Origin: Candidatus Bathyarchaeota archaeon
GTDB taxonomy: Archaea > Thermoproteota > Bathyarchaeia > Bathyarchaeales > Bathyarchaeaceae
Assembly: GCA_020348865.1 (NCBI GenBank)
Contig: CP070754.1
Location: 479,408 to 512,942 of the forward strand
Direction: 5' to 3'
Length of the DNA stretch: 33,535 nt
A program made the translations under genes and the position numbers. Shown here one piece after another: positions 1,818 to 22,587 of this stretch. The notes below the pieces were generated by a model. It was given only the letters and a program-made list of their open reading frames with translations. It was not told the DNA's origin and searched no databases. The stretch's first letter is position 1. Each line of letters opens with the position of its first letter.

Positions 1818-2399
1818 CTATTCTGTTTCACGCTCGGCTTTCTCGAAATCTTCAAACACACGTTTAAGCTGTCGTTTCATAGTGCGCAAATCGTGACTCA
1901 AACCGAAAAAGTCGGCGAAGAACCCAGTTGTCCGCAACAATCTGGATCGGCCAACCCTCTCACGGGAAATCAAACCCATGTCCTCCAACTGTCTTAGATG
2001 ACCGTAAGCATGATGACCCCTCACATCAACAACCTGCGACTGCAGAACAGGCTGTCGAAAAGCAGTGTAAGACAAAGTCTTCAATGGACCTTTAGAAAGA
2101 AGCGGTCGAATCGCCAACCTCTGAACCTGAGGTGAAAACTCAGTTTTCAACTGCAAAACAAACCTTTCATCCTCAAGCTCCAAGATTTCAAGAGCAGACT
2201 CACAACTCTCATACTTTTCCATAAGAACTCTTACGAGCTTCTGAACCTTGCTCTTAGAACGGGTCTTAATTATCGAGCCTAATGTCTTTGAATCCAGAGG
2301 ACGCCCTGCCACGTACAACGCCGCCTCTACCAAAGCCAGATTGCGTTTCAGCTTCTCTTTGCTAAGCAGTTCAGAAGATTCCAGCTCTATCTTCTCCAA
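1818..2399 (-). CDS. scpB: Segregation and condensation protein B (ScpB)
   Basis: This is the KITE subunit of the SMC-ScpAB condensin, which binds the middle of the ScpA kleisin and helps organise and segregate the chromosome. The 193-aa protein shows the ScpB pattern of two winged helices. The first is 'NLALVEAALYVAGRPLDSKTL' (~20-40). The second is around residues 105-165, with 'LSYTAFRQPV' and 'HLRQLEDMGLISRERVGRS'. Its ATG at 2399 lies inside the end of scpA (29-nt overlap), so translation is probably coupled. It is the last gene of the smc-scpA-scpB operon. The length is normal for the family. Confidence 0.9.
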   Translation of the reverse strand: MEKIELESSELLSKEKLKRNLALVEAALYVAGRPLDSKTLGSIIKTRSKSKVQKLVRVLMEKYESCESALEILELEDERFVLQLKTEFSPQVQRLAIRPLLSKGPLKTLSYTAFRQPVLQSQVVDVRGHHAYGHLRQLEDMGLISRERVGRSRLLRTTGFFADFFGLSHDLRTMKRQLKRVFEDFEKAERETE

Positions 2400-3069
2400 T
2401 AGCAGGACCCTCTGGCAGAGTTATGACAATCTCGCTGGAGTCCTCTTCTTGCCACAAGCCGACTTCACCTGTTTGCGCAAGGAAGAGAAGAGTAATGAAC
2501 GTTTTGATTGCCTCTAATTTTCCATATCCAGTTACCAATTTTGAGAAGAGCACCAGTTTCTCCTTGCTCGCAAGTTCACGCAGAAGACTGCATAAGATCT
2601 TCATCTTCTCCGCAATCTCCACCATATACAAGTCGACGGGAGGAAGAAAATCTGGGGGCGGTGGCAAGATAGATTTAGAAGGTGGCTTCACCTCGAACAA
2701 GTGTTCACCTTGCAGTACTTCATCCAGTACTGTCAACAAATGCTGAATTGTTGTGGACGTCAACTCGTATCGAAGAGGAAGGAATAAGGGAGGAGGCGAA
2801 AAGTCGGGTGGAGGCTTTAGAGGAGGAGGTGGCTCCTCTAACTTCAGCAGGAGCTTGGACTTCATAAGATATATGGTGGCAGAAGAATCAAGTGCTACTC
2901 CCGAAGCTCTGAAATCGATTTCACCCGTGTTTTCCATCCGATCTAAGAAAGATGTCAACAAAAACGAGATATTGACGTCCCACGGCAAGACCTTCTGCAA
3001 CTTGTCAAGTTCAAAGAGCAGGTTCAGTGGAGGCTGAAAATAGAACGGTTTCTCCACGGACTCTGACAT
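2371..3069 (-). CDS. scpA: Segregation and condensation protein A (ScpA), kleisin
   Basis: This is the kleisin subunit that bridges the SMC heads and recruits ScpB. The 232-aa protein has the N-terminal SMC-binding part (PPLNLLFELDKL..LPWDVNISFLLTSFLDRM, residues ~13-46) and a C-terminal winged helix with the hallmark 'KTFITLLFLAQTGEVGLWQEED' (~190-211). The middle is unusually proline-rich (PPPPLKPPPDFSPPPL at ~80-95 and a second tract near 140), where other ScpAs have a mixed linker. The start codon shares one base with the smc stop (TGATG), showing tight coupling. The match to ScpA is secure from the two ends and the operon. Confidence 0.9.
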   Translation of the reverse strand: MSESVEKPFYFQPPLNLLFELDKLQKVLPWDVNISFLLTSFLDRMENTGEIDFRASGVALDSSATIYLMKSKLLLKLEEPPPPLKPPPDFSPPPLFLPLRYELTSTTIQHLLTVLDEVLQGEHLFEVKPPSKSILPPPPDFLPPVDLYMVEIAEKMKILCSLLRELASKEKLVLFSKLVTGYGKLEAIKTFITLLFLAQTGEVGLWQEEDSSEIVITLPEGPAIGEDRAGIF

Positions 3070-6000
3070 CAGTCTGCCCCCTTGAACACAGTGGAAACTA
3101 CATGGGAGACTCCCTGTCGTTCGTATACACCATAGATTCTCGCTGCTTTGCCAGCCATCTCAGGCTTCAACGTAATGACTAAAGATTGAGCTTTCATTGA
3201 TTCTTCGGCTAGAAGCTCCCCAAGTTTCTCCACGTGAAGGGCATCCAGATGCGCGTCAACTTCGTCGAACAAGTAGAAAGTGGCAGGCATAAAATCCTGC
3301 AAGGCAAATATGAAAGCAACGGCTGCCACTGATCTTTCTCCACTGCTGGCTCCACTCACAAGGATTGGAGGCTTGGCGGGGAATTGGACGACCATATCTA
3401 TTCCGCCAGCCAATGGTTCTTCAAGGTTGTCAAGTCTCAAAGCCGCTTCTCCGCCGCCTGTAAGTTTGGAGAAGAAATTGCCGATATTCTCGTTTACCTG
3501 GTTGAAAGCATCCATGAAAACCTTACGTTTCTTCTGATCAATCTCCTCCATAAATGAGAGTATAGCCTGTTTTTCTCGTTCCAACTCGTTCATACGTATA
3601 GATAATTCCTTATATCGTGAAGCTTGGTCAGCATAATGTGACAAGGCTAGTTGATTTACGGCGCCTAACCTTTCAAGTTCGAAACGCATCAGTTTGACAG
3701 ATGATTCAGCCAATTGAAGTTGTTCCGGTGATACTTCCAAGGGTTCTTCGTAGCCACATTCTTTCAGTTGAACGCTACGTTGATCCCGCTGTAGTTGTGA
3801 GGTCTGGAGTCTAAGTTGAAGCTGATTGAGCAAATGGTCGGCTTGTTCATGTTCCTGGTCGTATCGCTGCAATCTCTTATCTACACTATCAATTTGAGAC
3901 GTGAACTTCTTCGCTTCATCTCTAGCTGACAGAACTGTGCTGGACAATTCTTTCTTTGCCTTCTCAAGCTCGGGAAGCTCTCTTTCAAGTGTCTCCTTCT
4001 GTTCCTGGGCTTCACTCACTTCTTTTTCTACGGTGGAAAGCTGTTGTTTTACCTTTCTAAGCTGAATCCGGATGTTATTGGCTCCATGTCTTAGGACGTT
4101 ACTCAAATTGGATTGTAGAGTTGAAAGCTCAGTTTCTGTGGTGCCAAGATTCTGTCGTAACTCTATGATTTCGTCTCCAAGCTTTCCCTTCTGAACTTCC
4201 ATCTCTTGAATCTGATGCAAATCCACTTTTCGTCGTAAATCAGTCAGTTCGCTACGTAGTTTCTTTATTTCTTTTCCCGCAGCACTGCGTTGTGCTTTTT
4301 GAAGACCCATTTGTGTCTTCTCTTTTTCAAGACGCGCTTGCGTAGTCTGAATATGCTTATCAAGGCGCCTAACGTTTCGTCTGATATACTTGATGCTTTT
4401 ATGTATTCGTTCAACTTCACTTTCAAGGGTGCGTATCGCCTCGGTTAACCGTGTGAATTCTTCTCGGTTTTTATCGATTTCTTCTTCAAAACCATCTACG
4501 TCATTTTCTCTTCTTGCCAGATGTTCATGAAGGGCGCTCACTGCTTGGTTCAAGCTCTCGACGGCTGACTCGCTTGGGATAATTGTAGAAAAATCGATGG
4601 GTGCCCGATAATAGCCGCTCTCTATTCCTCCACCTGTCTCGTAAACATTTCCACTGACGGTAGCGGTTCGATAGCCGTTGCGACAGGTTGAGAGAGCAGT
4701 CTTGTCATCCGTCGCAATCAAAGTATCTCCAAACACAAAGACAACCGCGGGTTCATACTGTCTTGCACATTTGACAAACATGGAGGCTGTTCCATTTACA
4801 TCTCTGGTTTTCTTTGGGTTCACAGGTTTGATATCAGATAATTCCTGAACAGGGATTATCTTTATTCGGCCCAACTTCAGACGTGTGAGCGTTTCCGTAC
4901 ATGTGAACGCTGTGTTGAAATCTTGAACAACGATTGAGTCTAACCAGCCACCTGAAGCTGCTTCTATTGCTCGTTCGTAACCACGGTCTATCTTGATTAG
5001 GTCTTTGAGTCGCCCATGTATCCCTGGGATGACGCCGAGTTCGCCGAGTTCTTCGATGTTCCTCAGTGCGGTCTCTTCTCTACCCACACGTTCAGCCAGT
5101 TTCCGTTGAGTGGCAAACTCTACCACGGCCTCTCGAGCTGTATTGGCGATTCTGCCAGCCTCAATAATCTCTCTCTCCATGGATGTTTTCTGCACTTTCT
5201 TCTGATCCAGCATTTGCTGAAGAGTTTTCAGCTGTTTTTCTTGTTTCTTCTTCACATCTTTAAGGTCTCTAAACGATTTTTCAAGTTCTTCAAGGCTAAA
5301 CACAAATCTGCTCTTGCGAGCGTTGTAATCGTTCAATCTGCGGGAAAGAGCTTTGGTTGTAGCTTGGGTTCTCCATTGATCGCTTCGAAGGACAACCAAG
5401 TTTTGATAGAGCTTATCAAGTTGCTGCTCCAACTCTCTGATTCTCTTACTGTTCACACCCAGATTTGCTCTTAGTTGCGCTGCTTCACTTGAGGCGGCAT
5501 CATGTTCAAACCGTTTGGCTACAATCTCTTTGGATAGGCGTTCATGTTGCCGTTTCAACTGCCTGATTCTCTTGTTGCTTTCGGCGATTTCTCTGCTAAT
5601 CTTCTCTAGTCGTTCAAGATCGTTTTCTTTCACCTTCTCAAGCCCTTCGAGGCTCATTGTTCCTGCACCTATTTTGGTCGTCAATTCAGGAAGTTTCGCT
5701 TTGATGTCGCCTATCTTTATCTGAACCTCGAGGACTCGTGTGCCACCTTCCTCCACCTCTTCTGTACTGAGCTTTCTCCATTCTGTTTCGATTTCACGAC
5801 GTTGCGTTCTAAGGTCGTCTCTCATCTTCCGTAGGTTTTCGGCTTTGGTGCCGGCTTCTTCAACATTAGACAACAGGCTTTCAATTTCGTGATCAATTTC
5901 TGAAATGTCATGAGAAAGCTTCATAGCTTCAAATCGTTTGATTTCGTCCTGGACAAAAGCGTGGCGAAGCAGGTCGTTGCGTTCTCTCTCCAAGTCGTCA

Positions 6001-6617
6001 ACTCTCTGCTGTACTTCGTCTATTCGCCCCATGGCTGTTCGAATAGATATTTCGGCGACTCGAAGTTTATCTTCGGCTTCAGCTTTTTCAGCGTCGTATT
6101 GTGCAATGCCAACTAGGTCTTCTATGATTTTTCTACGGTCATGAGGAGAGACTTCAGCCATACGTGTGATTGTTCCTTGCACAATGATGTTGTGCCCGGT
6201 CGGGCTGATTCCAGCCATGGACAGCATTTCGACTATTCGAGATCTACTAATTCTCCTTCCATTGAGACGATAAACGCTCTGACCGTTTCCACGGACTTCA
6301 CGAGAGACGGTCACAGTGTTTGTGTCAACTGGTATGCGATGGTCCAGATTGTCGAACTGAATGACAACTTTCGCTACTTTCGACTTTTCGATACCCGCGT
6401 TGGAAGAGCCATGAAAAATGAGTTTCGCAAAATTTTCTGCACGTAGTCTCCTAGCACTCAGTTCGCCCAACCCGAACAAAACAGCATCCACAATATTGGT
6501 TTTTCCGCTTCCGTTTGGGCCAGTGAGCGCCGTGAACCCTTTGTCCAAAACTATGCTAGCGGTTCTAGGACCAAAAGATTTGAAGCCTTTCAACTCTATT
6601 TTCTTAATGTGCGGCAT
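3069..6617 (-). CDS. smc: Chromosome segregation protein SMC (1182 aa)
   Basis: This is the ATPase of the canonical archaeal condensin. Walker A GPNGSGKT is at residues 33-40. Long coiled coils run at about 170-510 and 680-1020. They flank a hinge domain at roughly 525-670 that includes 'GVIPGIHGRLKDLI' and the Gly-rich 'TGGGIESGYY'. Walker B 'FYLFDEVD' is at ~1114-1121, with the D-loop DAHLD after it. The ABC signature reads ASSGERS (~1090-1096), where LSGGEKS is usual. The full length is normal. It is followed by scpA with a one-base overlap. The ATG at 6617 agrees with the family start (MPHIKKIELKGFKSF). Confidence 0.97.
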   Translation of the reverse strand: MPHIKKIELKGFKSFGPRTASIVLDKGFTALTGPNGSGKTNIVDAVLFGLGELSARRLRAENFAKLIFHGSSNAGIEKSKVAKVVIQFDNLDHRIPVDTNTVTVSREVRGNGQSVYRLNGRRISRSRIVEMLSMAGISPTGHNIIVQGTITRMAEVSPHDRRKIIEDLVGIAQYDAEKAEAEDKLRVAEISIRTAMGRIDEVQQRVDDLERERNDLLRHAFVQDEIKRFEAMKLSHDISEIDHEIESLLSNVEEAGTKAENLRKMRDDLRTQRREIETEWRKLSTEEVEEGGTRVLEVQIKIGDIKAKLPELTTKIGAGTMSLEGLEKVKENDLERLEKISREIAESNKRIRQLKRQHERLSKEIVAKRFEHDAASSEAAQLRANLGVNSKRIRELEQQLDKLYQNLVVLRSDQWRTQATTKALSRRLNDYNARKSRFVFSLEELEKSFRDLKDVKKKQEKQLKTLQQMLDQKKVQKTSMEREIIEAGRIANTAREAVVEFATQRKLAERVGREETALRNIEELGELGVIPGIHGRLKDLIKIDRGYERAIEAASGGWLDSIVVQDFNTAFTCTETLTRLKLGRIKIIPVQELSDIKPVNPKKTRDVNGTASMFVKCARQYEPAVVFVFGDTLIATDDKTALSTCRNGYRTATVSGNVYETGGGIESGYYRAPIDFSTIIPSESAVESLNQAVSALHEHLARRENDVDGFEEEIDKNREEFTRLTEAIRTLESEVERIHKSIKYIRRNVRRLDKHIQTTQARLEKEKTQMGLQKAQRSAAGKEIKKLRSELTDLRRKVDLHQIQEMEVQKGKLGDEIIELRQNLGTTETELSTLQSNLSNVLRHGANNIRIQLRKVKQQLSTVEKEVSEAQEQKETLERELPELEKAKKELSSTVLSARDEAKKFTSQIDSVDKRLQRYDQEHEQADHLLNQLQLRLQTSQLQRDQRSVQLKECGYEEPLEVSPEQLQLAESSVKLMRFELERLGAVNQLALSHYADQASRYKELSIRMNELEREKQAILSFMEEIDQKKRKVFMDAFNQVNENIGNFFSKLTGGGEAALRLDNLEEPLAGGIDMVVQFPAKPPILVSGASSGERSVAAVAFIFALQDFMPATFYLFDEVDAHLDALHVEKLGELLAEESMKAQSLVITLKPEMAGKAARIYGVYERQGVSHVVSTVFKGAD

Positions 6618-16743: not shown

Positions 16744-18987
16744 TTATTGTATGGTTTGTTCGCTTGACAGCAAGAGGGAGCTGCCACCCTTGACCATTGC
16801 GTAGAACCAGTAGAAGGTTCTAAAGTCATGTTCGTATCCAGGTTGGTTTGCACCGACCATCAAGACCGGACCAATGGTAGAGACATGCGGTTGGTCGAGG
16901 GCTCTTATCATTTGGTAGCCAGACTCGCTGCTATCGTAGAGCTCCATGTGAATTACGTCATATGAAACCCACGGATCTTTGTCAGGCCCATCTTCGTGCA
17001 AAAGCGTACGTAGGAAGCTCACTCCGAAATCGTTCTCTAGTACACCGGTAGATACGTCCCATCCATTGTAACTCCAGCCACCTGCACCGCCTTCAACATC
17101 ATCATAGAAGGCAATCTCCGGAATCTCAATGTCGTCAACATACCATCCAAGTTCAAGAGTGTACGGGTCAGTCCAGTACGTAAAGTACAGTTCTATGGTG
17201 TGGCCCGCAAATGGTGTCAAATCCATTACTTCCTGATACCAGCCGTAGCTGAAGCCCGTGAAAGCGTTCCATCTTCCTGCAGCCAAATAAGCTGTAGGCT
17301 CAAATTCGGCAGGGCAGTTAGGATTGTCTTGTGGATTTGGAAGCGTTGAAACCGTGTCAAGTCCTGGAAGAGTGTACCATTCATCTGTGTCGAGGTCGTG
17401 GACTTCTACGTAGCCATAGTCCCAGTTTCCTTCGATTTCGTAGTTACTCCAAAACTTGAGAGTCGCTGCTGAAACAGTTGTAAGGTCAAAAGTCTGACCC
17501 AATCTGAACCACGAGTATTCTGTTCCATCTGAATACCATTGATAGGTACCACTGTGCGCAAATACACCGCAGTAGTCGTCGCCGTCAAAGTACAATTCCA
17601 TTCCTGTATCGTAACCGTAGAATTCAACATAGTTCACAGTGTATGGCAGAGAACTTCCATATGGATAGTTGTATCCGTAGTTCGGGTATGCATCAACAGA
17701 TATGTCGAACCAAGGATACAAGAAATCCCACATCCAAATCACGAACGGTATGTCATACCAGTCGGTGTCTGCGGAAGGTATGTCTAAATCATAGTAGCCG
17801 TAGATTCCATCATCAAACGTTGTGTCGTCAAGATAGTTTGCAATCGCCCAATCCTGGAAGATTTCATCAAACGTTTTCTTTGCATGGTGGTCTTTGAGGA
17901 CTTCGTTGTAGCCCTCGATTCCGTTGGCTTGTTCGTGAGTGAGGTCCCATATCAACGGTGCTCCACCATAGTGCTCGTACACGTAGAAGGTCCATAGGAA
18001 AGCGGCTCCATAATTAGACAAATAGCTCTCCCAAACCACCAATGAAGTGTCCCACCAATAAATCAAGTAATCAGATATTTGACCCGGTGAGAATCCGTAT
18101 CCGTTGATGTACTCAGACAGCATCGAGCAGCCTTCGTTAACCCACACCTCTTCATCAGAGTCTACGTCATAGTGAATCAAATGCTGGAATTCATGACAGA
18201 AAGTTCCTTCATACTCGTAAGGACGAGGCACATTAGGTCCAATTCGGGCGTACCACTGCCAAGTGTCCATGTGGAATATGTTTGCGTCATTGAATTCGCT
18301 TGCAAACGACCAGAAATATCCCTGTATGAACCAAGGCGCATTGATTGGATCCCAGAAGAGCCCATCACGAATGTTGAATATCAATATTTGAATCTTGTAG
18401 TCATCGAGGGGGCCTGGACGATCAGCATACATGCCGAAGTGTGTCGTAGTTGTTTCCCAAATGTTGTTGTCAAATTCATCAACCATGTAGGTTAGGTTCT
18501 TTCCGTAAATCACGTCGGTGTGTCCTGGCGGGATACCATACGCTGGGATGCCTGACCAAGTCCATGGGTACACAAAGTGCCACTCATCATCATCAAACCC
18601 TGGACCCTTTGCGTCATAGTAGTCTTGATATCCATTCCATACATCGGGGCTCAGCCCTATCCAAATGTTACAGTGTTCACCGGACGCGACAACTTCAAAA
18701 GCCAGCCAGTCCCACCCACCGGTGTAGTCGTCAATGACCGGCACCCACCATGGGTTTCCAGTGTCAGGCTCTATGCCATCTATTACAAGTCCATGAAATC
18801 TGGGTGTACCGTCGATTCCTTCAAGGTCGTCACTCTCTTCGAATACTGGACGCGAACCCTCAGGAAGCCCCGAAGTTTTCAGAGTTCCCGATGTTCGTCT
18901 AGATGCTGGAGTTGCTATGCCTGCATTGAATATTAGAGACGCCATGAATACTGCAATAAGCAGAGTCGTAAGTAGTTTTTTCTTCAT
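16744..18987 (-). CDS. Secreted zinc metallopeptidase, immune inhibitor A (M6)-like (747 aa)
   Basis: A Sec signal peptide (MKKKLLTTLLIAVFMASLIF, cleavage near residue 25-28) shows export. The active-site motif HEFQH (HExxH) is at residues 265-269, followed by 'VNEG' whose Glu (~285) can be the third zinc ligand. The C-terminal half has beta-sandwich domains of the type seen in immune inhibitor A peptidases: 'LKFWSNYEIEGNWDYGYVEV' (~490-510) and 'GWYVDDIEI'. The protein is very rich in Trp, Tyr and Asp, as in extracellular calcium-stabilised enzymes. It probably degrades external protein. The M6-like assignment is from motifs; the substrate is unknown. Confidence 0.82.
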   Translation of the reverse strand: MKKKLLTTLLIAVFMASLIFNAGIATPASRRTSGTLKTSGLPEGSRPVFEESDDLEGIDGTPRFHGLVIDGIEPDTGNPWWVPVIDDYTGGWDWLAFEVVASGEHCNIWIGLSPDVWNGYQDYYDAKGPGFDDDEWHFVYPWTWSGIPAYGIPPGHTDVIYGKNLTYMVDEFDNNIWETTTTHFGMYADRPGPLDDYKIQILIFNIRDGLFWDPINAPWFIQGYFWSFASEFNDANIFHMDTWQWYARIGPNVPRPYEYEGTFCHEFQHLIHYDVDSDEEVWVNEGCSMLSEYINGYGFSPGQISDYLIYWWDTSLVVWESYLSNYGAAFLWTFYVYEHYGGAPLIWDLTHEQANGIEGYNEVLKDHHAKKTFDEIFQDWAIANYLDDTTFDDGIYGYYDLDIPSADTDWYDIPFVIWMWDFLYPWFDISVDAYPNYGYNYPYGSSLPYTVNYVEFYGYDTGMELYFDGDDYCGVFAHSGTYQWYSDGTEYSWFRLGQTFDLTTVSAATLKFWSNYEIEGNWDYGYVEVHDLDTDEWYTLPGLDTVSTLPNPQDNPNCPAEFEPTAYLAAGRWNAFTGFSYGWYQEVMDLTPFAGHTIELYFTYWTDPYTLELGWYVDDIEIPEIAFYDDVEGGAGGWSYNGWDVSTGVLENDFGVSFLRTLLHEDGPDKDPWVSYDVIHMELYDSSESGYQMIRALDQPHVSTIGPVLMVGANQPGYEHDFRTFYWFYAMVKGGSSLLLSSEQTIQ

Positions 18988-19174: not shown

Positions 19175-21220
19175 ATGCTGATTCGAGAAGTCATCCTCGA
19201 AAACTTCATGTCCTATGAATACGCTAGGATACCTCTTAAATCAGGCGTCAACATTGCCTGCGGACCTAACGGTTCAGGCAAGTCATCCATCCTACTTGGA
19301 ATCTCAGTCGCGCTGGGCCAATCCTACACCGAACGATCCAAGAAACTGAGTGACCTCATTCGATGGGGCAAAGATCAAGCACGGGTCACCGTGGTCTTAG
19401 ACAACACTCGAAAAAAAGGGCGACGACCAGCTCCAAGAATCAATAAGGACAGTATTTTCCTGACCAGAATGTTCAGGCGTGACGGAAAATACTGGTTTGA
19501 ACTTGAAAACAAAGCTGCTAACAAGAAACGTGTAGAAAGACTCCTCTCAAAGCTTGGAGTTGACCCGAATAACATGTTGGTTATCATGCACCAGAACATG
19601 GTGGAACAGTTCACAGTGCTACAACCCCAAGAAAAACTCAAGATTGTGGAAGCAGCGGTGGGATTCGAATCCTACCGTCAAAACGTTTCCAAGGCTCAAC
19701 GAAAGCTCAAGCGAATCCTAAGTCAAGAAGAATCTGTAGGAAAACTCCTCGAATCGGCTCAACAAACATTAAGTTATTGGAGAGAGCAGCACGATAGGTA
19801 CCAACAGAAAAAACAGCTAAGAATGAAACGAAAATTCCTTGAACGAGAATTTGCATGGGCAGAAGTTTCAAAGCGTGAAAAAACGGTTACGGAACTGAAA
19901 AGCGAAGTCCGAGAGAAACAGAGTGAAATCTCACATATCAAGAAAGAAACCGAGATAACTCGTAATCAACTACGTAAACTTCAAACGAGGTTGAAACAAT
20001 CGAAGACAGAACGGCAAAATCTTATTCAAGGACGACTTAAGCTGGAATACGAAAGGGCAAAACATGAAACAGGCGTTTCACTAGTCAATCAAACCCTAGA
20101 AAAAACACGATCCTGGTCGGAAATCCAACAAGAATACTCGCAAGATTGTCTAAACCAAATAACGCGACTTGAGACAACGTTTCAAAGAATCCAAAACCCC
20201 ATAGACACCAGAGCTCAATTCGCGGAACTCAAGGAAACCTACGAAAACCTCGGAAACACGTGGGCTCAACAACTGAACCTTCGAAGCGAAGGCTTGAAAG
20301 GTTCCATAGAAGACTCCTACGAACAACTTGAAAAGCTACACACCCAAATCGCAGATGTCGAAGCGAAGATGAACCACTTGAATTCCGAGAGTGAAGACAC
20401 CAACGAGGGACTCATATATTGCAGAATCAACCTAGCTTTACTAAAATATCAGAAAGAGAACGCTGCAAAGACCTTGAAAACAACGGAAAAACAGCTTCAG
20501 ACCTCGCTTGCTAGCCTCCATGAAGCAGTAGAAAAAGCCAAGGAGACAGGTCCCCAGATTGCATCCACGAAAGATGTTGCAGAAATCTTAGACGAGATCC
20601 GATTGACAGATGGGCACCTCGCTGCCCTCGCGGATGTTTCTGAAGACATCGAACGTATGTACGAATCCTACTCCAAACTCTATTTGGACCTGAAGGAAAA
20701 GGCTCAGCTAGTTGCTGAGAGCCGTGAAAAAGCTTTGGAAGAAGTAGGAACGAGGATGACAGCGTGGAGAATGGTTATCCAAGACCTACTCAAACATGTC
20801 AGCCTTCGATACAATGGAATCCTTTCACAAACTCAAGCGATTGGAGCGGTCAAGTTGGTGAATGAACAGGATATCGAAGAAGCAGGCCTCGAAATACTTG
20901 TGGGTTTCAAGGGAGGAAAACTAGTCCCGCTTAACTCTTACACGCAGAGCGGCGGGGAAAGAAGCACTGCAACAATAAGCTTTCTCCTTGCGTTGCAACA
21001 GCACGTTCGATCCCGGTTCAGAGCTGTTGACGAATATGACATACACATGGATCCTAGAAACAGAGAGATTATAGCTAATCTACTTGTTTCTTCGATCAAA
21101 GGCCGGGACGCCCAATACCTAGCTATTACGCCGAGTCAGATGACGTTCACAGGAAAAGATGTTCACATAATTACAGTTCAAAACGTTGAAGGGACCTCGC
21201 TGATTAGAGAGGTAGCTTAG
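19175..21220 (+). CDS. SMC5/6-like SMC ATPase, short form (681 aa)
   Basis: This is an SMC-type ATPase. Walker A GPNGSGKS is at 30-37, signature QSGGERS at 591-597, and Walker B 'FRAVDEYDIHMD' with D619-E620. Head features resemble eukaryotic SMC5/SMC6 more than SMC or Rad50. These are the early 'VIMHQNMVEQFTVLQPQEKL' (~136-155, compare the SMC5/6 'QD...FL...P..K' region), QSGGERS, the 'VDE...MDPRNR' stretch, and 'LAITPSQM' where SMC5 has an 'ITPK' motif. Coiled coil fills about 170-590, with an NPID turn near 341. There is no CxxC zinc hook and no recognisable hinge, and the arms are much shorter than in usual SMCs. The next gene starts directly after its stop. ATG 19175 has GGAGAGG upstream. 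Confidence 0.82.
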   Translation: MLIREVILENFMSYEYARIPLKSGVNIACGPNGSGKSSILLGISVALGQSYTERSKKLSDLIRWGKDQARVTVVLDNTRKKGRRPAPRINKDSIFLTRMFRRDGKYWFELENKAANKKRVERLLSKLGVDPNNMLVIMHQNMVEQFTVLQPQEKLKIVEAAVGFESYRQNVSKAQRKLKRILSQEESVGKLLESAQQTLSYWREQHDRYQQKKQLRMKRKFLEREFAWAEVSKREKTVTELKSEVREKQSEISHIKKETEITRNQLRKLQTRLKQSKTERQNLIQGRLKLEYERAKHETGVSLVNQTLEKTRSWSEIQQEYSQDCLNQITRLETTFQRIQNPIDTRAQFAELKETYENLGNTWAQQLNLRSEGLKGSIEDSYEQLEKLHTQIADVEAKMNHLNSESEDTNEGLIYCRINLALLKYQKENAAKTLKTTEKQLQTSLASLHEAVEKAKETGPQIASTKDVAEILDEIRLTDGHLAALADVSEDIERMYESYSKLYLDLKEKAQLVAESREKALEEVGTRMTAWRMVIQDLLKHVSLRYNGILSQTQAIGAVKLVNEQDIEEAGLEILVGFKGGKLVPLNSYTQSGGERSTATISFLLALQQHVRSRFRAVDEYDIHMDPRNREIIANLLVSSIKGRDAQYLAITPSQMTFTGKDVHIITVQNVEGTSLIREVA

Positions 21221-22039
21221 TTGTCATCAAAAAGACACCGGAAGAAACTAGGCGGTGAACGTCTTCAACGTGTTATTGACTTGTGTGAATCTGTTGAGGA
21301 GAGAGGTCTCGACCCCTTCACAGTAGATGTTGAGGATATTCTGGCTGTAGTTCGAGAGTACTTCCAAGAATGGGAACTTCCAGAAGAACTATGCTTAGAC
21401 GCCGAAGCTATTCATAGGCTAGCCTCGATTATCAAGCTCCAAAGCGATTGGGTGAAACATCAGTCAACTTCACTCTACACTGATCCGTTCCTGTTAGAGG
21501 AGAAACTAGAAAGACTAGGCAAAGAAGAGCTTGCTAACCTATTCCTCGAAATCTGGCACCCTATTGTTGAACTAGAACAGTTGTCGCCTCACAGCTTGGC
21601 TGAAGCCATCAAGTACTGGAAGAACCTACTTCCAATTGACGAGAGATGGTCAGAAACTTTCTCTCCAGAAACGGAGACTGGAGCCACAACACGGGAAGAG
21701 TTGATCAAGCAGAGAATACTTGCTGAGAAAGCATTCCCAGAAACATTAGAAATGTTTTGGAAAGAGTTGAAATTGAAGGTCAGCGGTGTAGGCAAGATTC
21801 GATACTGGGACTTCGTTGGAGCCGATACATACCAGGAAACGATAAAGAGAGCTTATCTGACGAGTTTTCTCGTAACATATAGATATGCAACCTTGGAAGT
21901 GCATCGATTAGACGAAGAGATTTACATCAAACCCTTTGAGAAAATCGCGTCTGCAATCGGGAAAAAGCAACTGGTCTCTATTCCTGTTTCTGTGAGCGTC
22001 GAAGAATGGATGAGATGGAAAAGAGGCGAGCAAGATTGA
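21221..22039 (+). CDS. Kleisin-like partner of the SMC5-like ATPase (272 aa)
   Basis: The TTG start at 21221 abuts the stop of the SMC5-like gene. The protein is mostly helical. Its N terminus (RVIDLCESVEERGLDPFTVDVEDIL, ~17-41) resembles the ScpA opening 'L..lie.g.idpwdvdi..i'. Residues ~210-240 (RAYLTSFLVTYRYATLEVHR...EIYIKPF) resemble the C-terminal kleisin winged helix, 'vtFlAlLeLvk...v...Q...F.dI.i'. The gene order SMC, kleisin, KITE supports the reading. I infer it bridges the ATPase heads like ScpA or Nse4. It is not a close ScpA match, and ScpA itself is present at 2371-3069. Identity needs profile or structure comparison. Confidence 0.6.
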   Translation: MSSKRHRKKLGGERLQRVIDLCESVEERGLDPFTVDVEDILAVVREYFQEWELPEELCLDAEAIHRLASIIKLQSDWVKHQSTSLYTDPFLLEEKLERLGKEELANLFLEIWHPIVELEQLSPHSLAEAIKYWKNLLPIDERWSETFSPETETGATTREELIKQRILAEKAFPETLEMFWKELKLKVSGVGKIRYWDFVGADTYQETIKRAYLTSFLVTYRYATLEVHRLDEEIYIKPFEKIASAIGKKQLVSIPVSVSVEEWMRWKRGEQD

Positions 22040-22587
22040 GGAGAAAAGGATACTACACGAGAAAAATCAGGAGAGCTACGCATCTCCTCTTTTATAGGCA
22101 TCATAAAAAGCCGGGAGTTAAGGGCTGGGAACTAAGAAGAAGATTGGGCTCCGACTACCCCAAGGTTCTAAGTATACTTAACGGCTATTTGGAAAAACTG
22201 GATCTGCAGGTGAAAACAGTCTTTGAGGGGGAGAAAACCTCTAAGAGACCGACTGCCCAGCAACTGGACAAGGCTCGGTTCTACATAACGCTTCGGGGAG
22301 GGCTCATATCGAAGGAGACGAAGATGATGGGTTGGCGCATTGATGACATCGCAGGGCTGGCTGCAGCTATCTCTTGCATAATATCAAAGAAGGGAAAAGC
22401 TCCGAGAGAAGATGTAGAAAACCTTTTGCGCAACAAGCTTCCAGGATGGAGGGTGGATATAAACATGAATCGTTACATTCGATCCGGCTACCTGGCTGAG
22501 GATGAGAACAAACAACTATACCTTGACTGGAGAACTCACGCCGAGATTGACCAAAAAACTCTTGTGGACACACTCTTATCAATATAA
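22006..22587 (+). CDS. Tandem winged-helix, KITE-like protein (193 aa)
   Basis: The gene overlaps the kleisin-like gene by 34 nt, so expression is coupled. After a very basic N terminus (MEKRRARLRRKGYYTRKIRR), two winged-helix-like units appear. The first is ~22-75 (LLFYRHHKKPGVKGWELRRRL...VLSILNGYLEKLDL). The second is ~112-175 (GLAAAISCIISKKGKAPREDVENLL...MNRYIRSGYLAEDENKQLYL). Tandem winged helices beside an SMC and a kleisin are the mark of KITE subunits (ScpB, MukE, Nse1/Nse3). I infer it binds the kleisin-like protein and perhaps DNA. Direct family assignment is not possible by eye. Confidence 0.58.
   Translation: MDEMEKRRARLRRKGYYTRKIRRATHLLFYRHHKKPGVKGWELRRRLGSDYPKVLSILNGYLEKLDLQVKTVFEGEKTSKRPTAQQLDKARFYITLRGGLISKETKMMGWRIDDIAGLAAAISCIISKKGKAPREDVENLLRNKLPGWRVDINMNRYIRSGYLAEDENKQLYLDWRTHAEIDQKTLVDTLLSI

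Follow-up and report, generated by a model that had tools for sequence, protein, structure and literature searches.

Smc5/6 is the least understood of the eukaryotic structural maintenance of chromosomes (SMC) complexes, and its origin is debated. Does a three-gene operon of an archaeon encode a relative of this complex, and how could such a relative act on DNA? We addressed these questions at a locus of Candidatus Bathyarchaeota archaeon (NCBI GenBank assembly GCA_020348865.1), whose genome is a single contig of 1.5 Mb. The window, i.e., the whole stretch of DNA analyzed, comprises 33,535 nt of contig CP070754.1 (positions 479,408 to 512,942, forward strand), and the operon lies at 19175-22587 of it. 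An earlier note on this DNA had proposed a "complete, minimal SMC5/6-related loop-extruding or DNA-repair complex." We consider it likely that these three genes specify the core of an SMC5/6-type complex of archaea, one that works as a hinge-less clamp in fork or break repair. We are highly confident of the subunits themselves, namely an SMC5/6-type SMC, an Nse4-like kleisin and an Nse1/Nse3-like Kite protein; their identity, their co-occurrence and the lack of a recognizable hinge or zinc hook were established by sequence, predicted fold or gene context. The clamp-and-repair mechanism we would give an even chance.

Affinities of the three subunits

The SMC protein has a split ABC ATPase, with Walker A in the N-terminal part, the signature and Walker B in the C-terminal part, and an antiparallel coiled coil between them. 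When this single sequence was searched against the PDB with phmmer, yeast Smc5 (7e-29) and human Smc6 (1e-23) were the best matches, followed by SMC2 (3e-15) and Rad50 (6e-7). With a profile of 50 relatives, ranks 1-10 were all Smc6 or Smc5 (5e-69 to 5.5e-52), and lower down came a head construct of prokaryotic SMC (6e-52), then SMC2 (5e-43) and Rad50 (1.8e-12). As a control, the window's canonical SMC (3069-6617, − strand) ranked in the opposite way: prokaryotic SMC (4e-105), SMC3 (7e-54), SMC2 (2e-52) and Smc5 (2e-8).

The profile thus placed the ATPase with Smc5/6 and not with Rad50, and a head-domain phylogeny, which the earlier note had suggested as a check, agreed in grouping it with Smc5 and Smc6. 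In a maximum-likelihood tree of 48 taxa, in which the eukaryotic heads were partial (taken from PDB alignments) and SMC3 and SMC4 stood for SMC1-4, the archaeal type, its Asgard relatives, Smc5 and Smc6 grouped together (ultrafast bootstrap, UFBoot, 91), with canonical SMC, SMC3, SMC4 and bacterial SMC outside this group. The branching order inside the group was without resolution. The archaeal head was about equally similar to Smc5 and Smc6, as expected for a lineage that branched before the Smc5/Smc6 duplication, and the archaeal lineage may have split off before that event.

Single-sequence Pfam scans of the window kleisin and the window Kite gave nothing useful, so family-wide scans were needed. 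A kleisin profile of 31 relatives yielded only four PDB matches, all Nse4 or EID3 (E = 0.03-0.11), and a deeper profile of 53 sequences matched yeast Nse4 (2e-5), human EID3 (4e-5) and, more weakly, the ScpA C-terminal winged helix (0.014-0.018). When the 53 members were scanned singly, 37 matched Pfam Nse4_C (best 8.6e-8), and the runner-up family was matched by 2. Alignment with the ScpA family of the same order by hhalign reached 92% probability over the N- and C-terminal parts (mismatched controls, <1%). By these sequence comparisons, gene 2 is an Nse4-type kleisin, which gives a family to the "kleisin-like ends" that the earlier note had seen in the second protein.

The AlphaFold2 model of the Kite protein (predicted local distance difference test, pLDDT, 89) consists of two winged-helix units. 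When the model was compared with 350,542 PDB chains by Foldseek, only four chains had E < 0.001, all of them NSE1/MAGE-G1 or Nse1-Nse3-Nse4 chains; JetB, MukE and ScpB were among the lower-ranked matches. Over 52 Kite members, the most-matched Pfam families were MAGE (12) and SMC_Nse1 (7). Against ScpB, hhalign gave only 10%; the assignment rests on the fold and the Nse1/MAGE matches. Judged by its predicted fold, gene 3 is an Nse1/Nse3-type tandem winged-helix Kite, in keeping with the two winged-helix-like units described earlier. No Nse1 RING was found in it: the protein stops soon beyond winged helix B, and the cysteine count of members is 0-2.

The three open reading frames (ORFs), their spacing and their motifs (Walker A, QSGGERS and Walker B) are exactly as the earlier note described. 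The features are as follows (aa, amino acids).

19175..21220, + strand: gene 1, SMC5/6-type SMC ATPase, 681 aa, with a head, a single coiled-coil arm and no hinge domain
19262..19288, + strand: Walker A, GPNGSGKSS, aa 30-38 of the SMC
20189..20209, + strand: turn at the coiled-coil tip, aa 339-345 of the SMC, the expected hinge site, where none is predicted (AlphaFold2, hinge searches)
20945..20965, + strand: signature motif QSGGERS, aa 591-597 of the SMC, in the Smc5 form
21017..21034, + strand: Walker B and catalytic Glu, FRAVDE, aa 615-620 of the SMC
21221..22039, + strand: gene 2, Nse4-like kleisin, 272 aa, TTG start
21683..21898, + strand: C-terminal region of the kleisin aligning with the Nse4 C-terminal winged helix, bounds approximate (profile searches)
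22006..22587, + strand: gene 3, Nse1/Nse3-like tandem winged-helix Kite, 193 aa, overlapping the kleisin gene by 34 nt
22045..22221, + strand: winged helix A of the Kite, aa ~14-72, bounds approximate (predicted secondary structure)
22309..22524, + strand: winged helix B of the Kite, aa ~102-173, bounds approximate (predicted secondary structure)

The TTG start of the kleisin gene at 21221 abuts the TAG stop of the SMC gene. Residues 615-629 of the SMC read FRAVDEYDIHMDPRN, and an ITPS motif is also present; Walker A, QSGGERS, FRAVDEYDIHMDPRN and ITPS are all kept across 50 homologues.

The missing hinge

A feature overlooked in the earlier note is that the SMC has no hinge. In its AlphaFold2 model (pLDDT 87), the head bears a single long helix (165-338), after which a short turn leads into helices running back. 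Pfam SMC_hinge found no match in the window SMC, and the controls were matched (canonical window SMC, 7e-23; Asgard L161, 3e-13). A hinge model made from canonical and Asgard hinges, run with filters off, matched 0 of 50 archaeal members; Asgard members served as positive controls and matched, including those of loci L164 and L165, which were outside the model. The proteins, at 572-699 aa, leave scant room for a hinge of ~120 aa, and the tip region is variable in length and poorly conserved. The CxxC zinc hook was likewise absent from the arm region in all 50 members. Under a strict definition of an SMC, with a hinge dimerization domain at the tip, the operon protein would fall outside. Asgard relatives retain the hinge and have a longer SMC (831-995 aa); the simplest reading is that the hinge was lost in this archaeal lineage, although the direction depends on a better-rooted tree.

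It is possible, if doubtful, that the complex is a normal loop-extruding motor, the tips of which dimerize through an unrecognized mini-hinge and which organizes the chromosome as SMC-ScpAB does. Every motor part (head, kleisin and Kite) is present and conserved, and the distal C-terminal coil contains a conserved stretch, YxDxRxxxAxLxY. However, a hinge match in none of the 50 members and a tip so variable and poorly conserved speak against it, as does the full canonical SMC-ScpA-ScpB set that the same window already encodes. The operon shares with SMC-ScpAB the composition of SMC, kleisin and Kite, and hhalign linked its kleisin to ScpA, as given above. Whereas the operon SMC is short and hinge-less, a canonical SMC has a hinge and ~1,180 aa, and here the canonical complex is encoded separately: at 1818-6617 (− strand), the genes for a canonical, hinge-bearing SMC of 1,182 aa, for a divergent ScpA and for ScpB stand side by side. 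With the hinge missing, loop extrusion should not be assumed. Two SMC-kleisin-Kite sets thus lie within ~13 kb of this genome. The signature of the canonical window SMC is itself unusual, in that ASSGERS replaces LSGGE.

Distribution and genomic context

In the order to which the window belongs, 48 of the 61 genomes had a strong SMC match, and ~30 loci carried all three genes in order, with homologues 50-90% identical. Among 300 genomes of the phylum Thermoproteota, the Kite was found in 125, the kleisin in 126 and the SMC in 127, and all three were found in 121 of the 131 genomes having any of them (the naive probability of such an overlap, ~1e-74, is descriptive only and ignores shared ancestry). 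Carriers of all three include Bathyarchaeota, Thermofilaceae, Calditenuaceae and Methanodesulfokora. The three-gene arrangement is therefore not a product of chance, given its conservation at this identity within the order and its recurrence across the phylum, and the co-occurrence in relatives on which the earlier note had staked its reading is borne out. The window's own genome has a single gene of this SMC type, and so, as far as this was checked, do the genomes of the phylum search; those double SMC rows of the search that were inspected proved to be a single ORF matched in two segments. In a separate phylum, probably Hadarchaeota, 21 of 28 genomes had the Kite. Some variation was observed: at L036:10046-12582, L035 and L038, the kleisin and Kite lie ~2.5 kb from the SMC gene or beyond the examined stretch, and four near-complete genomes of genus g13 in the window's family (G015, G019, G021 and G022) have none of the three genes, probably through recent loss, as congeners such as G023 have them.

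In the Asgard phylum (Lokiarchaeota), a recognizable Kite was present in 5 of 148 genomes, and an SMC adjoins it at all five loci. The genes thus occur, in divergent form, in a few Asgard genomes. L161-L163 show a kleisin match as well, with an SMC of 831-840 aa; at L164 and L165, the archaeal kleisin profile did not recognize the protein in the kleisin position. At L161:3419-4810, L163:8572-9963 and L162:11243-12628, an overlapping gene of ~462 aa was seen upstream, and the L161 copy, which was scanned, encodes an AAA+ ATPase. Two candidates were discarded here. The idea of two adjacent SMC genes at L164 and L165 was wrong, the second large ORF of L165 being a CARDB-type secreted protein and that of L164 looking alike by eye, and L140 (Lokiarchaeota) was dropped as a distant member, its best PDB matches being SMC4/SMC3, with a hinge present and no kleisin match found in its genome.

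A recurrent neighbor is an Lhr helicase of ~950 aa. In families other than that of the window, many loci have it immediately downstream in convergent orientation; 29 of 68 loci contained a helicase of this cluster, and its identity is based on WH_Lhr and DEAD_assoc domains and the best NCBIfam models. At L044:12204-15092, L120:6534-9368 and others, Lhr is convergent with the end of the Kite gene and sometimes overlaps it. Archaeal Lhr favors forked DNA and has been assigned to stalled or broken forks (PMC7437997). In one family, two loci have close by a Rad50-like gene and, overlapping or abutting it, a gene for a calcineurin-like phosphoesterase, the pairing expected of Mre11-Rad50. Beside the SMC gene, upstream, a divergently encoded protein of ~228 aa, of no clear family in Pfam or NCBIfam, was found at 23 loci (e.g., L106:7254-7937, L101:7017-7697, L131:4488-5171 and L137:5152-5838) and is a candidate regulator or extra subunit. 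In the window, the gene directly upstream of the operon (16744-18987, − strand) encodes a large secreted protein with an immune-inhibitor-A-like MAM domain. None of Nse2, Nse5 and Nse6 was among the recurrent conserved neighbors, although no genome-wide search for them was made.

An anti-plasmid or anti-phage defense system of the Wadjet or Lamassu kind is very unlikely, and we rejected it. The ATPase has PADLOC matches (mad3, 1e-23; LmuB, 2.5e-17) and the Kite fold resembles JetB as well as MukE, but these PADLOC matches are weak and confined to the ATPase, with the kleisin and Kite matching no PADLOC family, and the head is nearer to Smc5/6 than to Wadjet JetABC or MukBEF. No JetD nuclease effector gene was seen in the operon, nor a JetD Toprim nuclease among the recurrent conserved neighbors. 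Unlike defense islands, the genes are widespread (in the order, the 48 genomes noted above), single copy and syntenic. A search of viral contigs found none carrying a relative, leaving a phage or mobile origin unsupported.

It is scarcely credible that the SMC is instead a repair ATPase of the Rad50/SbcC or ASRP (ClsN/Sph) kind whose helical partners are unrelated, a reading that the comparisons largely refute: the protein is short and hinge-less, as ASRP and Rad50 are, and Rad50 is a neighbor of the operon in one family, but models scored 77.9 bits (Rad50) and 59.9 bits (ASRP, far under the model cut-off of 300) against 182 for SMC, no member has in its arm region the zinc hook present in most ASRPs (PMC9389158), and the partners are a kleisin and a Kite, which Rad50 is without (PMC10586767).

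The proposed clamp and its relation to Smc5/6

Our preferred reading, a hinge-less SMC5/6-type clamp, would have the following form. Two copies of one SMC would combine with a single Nse4-like kleisin and probably a pair of identical Kites, and the SMC homodimer would be held by ATP-dependent head engagement together with the kleisin and its Kite dimer, in place of a hinge. Such a complex would be a short-armed, ATP-gated DNA clamp, like the head-proximal clamp of Smc5/6, and not a hinge-closed ring. Smc5/6 clamps DNA through its heads, Nse4 and Nse3 (PMC9191643), and hinge-less yeast Smc5 and Smc6 sub-complexes come together given ATP (PMC8327961). That this hinge-less complex is an ATP-gated head–kleisin–Kite clamp could as easily prove wrong as right. 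It may act at stalled forks or broken DNA, beside the separate canonical SMC-ScpA-ScpB of the same genome, a role suggested by the neighbors in relatives, i.e., Lhr helicase and Rad50 with an Mre11-type gene.

Compared with the eukaryotic Smc5/6 core, the archaeal head is nearest to Smc5/Smc6, the kleisin to Nse4 and the Kite to Nse1/Nse3, whereas there is one SMC gene and one Kite gene in place of two each, the SMC is hinge-less and 572-699 aa instead of ~1,100 aa, and the Nse1 RING is missing. With its single SMC gene, the operon does not encode two different SMC subunits such as those of the Smc5/Smc6 heterodimer. The "complete" of the earlier note accordingly holds for the core only: the core subunits are present, but no Nse2, Nse5, Nse6 or RING was seen.

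Several points weigh against the clamp-and-repair reading. The stoichiometry and dimerization of the complex are what we infer, and the coiled-coil tip could still dimerize in a manner invisible to a monomer model. The Pfam matches of the Kite are individually weak (best 1.2e-4). In the window itself, neither Lhr nor Rad50 adjoins the operon, so the repair reading rests on the relatives. Some near-complete relatives are without the whole operon, which is therefore not essential everywhere.

Archaeal "SMC5/6-related" SMCs clustering with SMC5 and SMC6 have already been published (Yoshinaga & Inagaki 2021, as conveyed by PMC9389158), and the operon ATPase very probably belongs to the same group; kleisins are unmentioned in the text of PMC9389158 (2022). 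The hinge loss and the Lhr/Rad50 context may be new: we found no description of them in the literature examined, a comparison outside which the 2021 study and one of 2024 stand. The latter, a preprint by van Hooff et al. (bioRxiv 2024.01.07.573240), is said by its title to concern the prokaryotic roots of SMC complexes, and may describe archaeal kleisin and Kite partners.

A set of one SMC, one Nse4-like and one Nse1/3-like protein in archaea has the form expected before the Smc5/Smc6 and Nse1/Nse3 duplications. Being small and partly from thermophilic lineages, the complex is a practical target for biochemistry and cryo-electron microscopy, and a natural hinge-less form would cleanly test which SMC activities require a closed ring. 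If the clamp reading is true, clamping, and not loop extrusion, would be the core activity that the SMC5/6 lineage has conserved.

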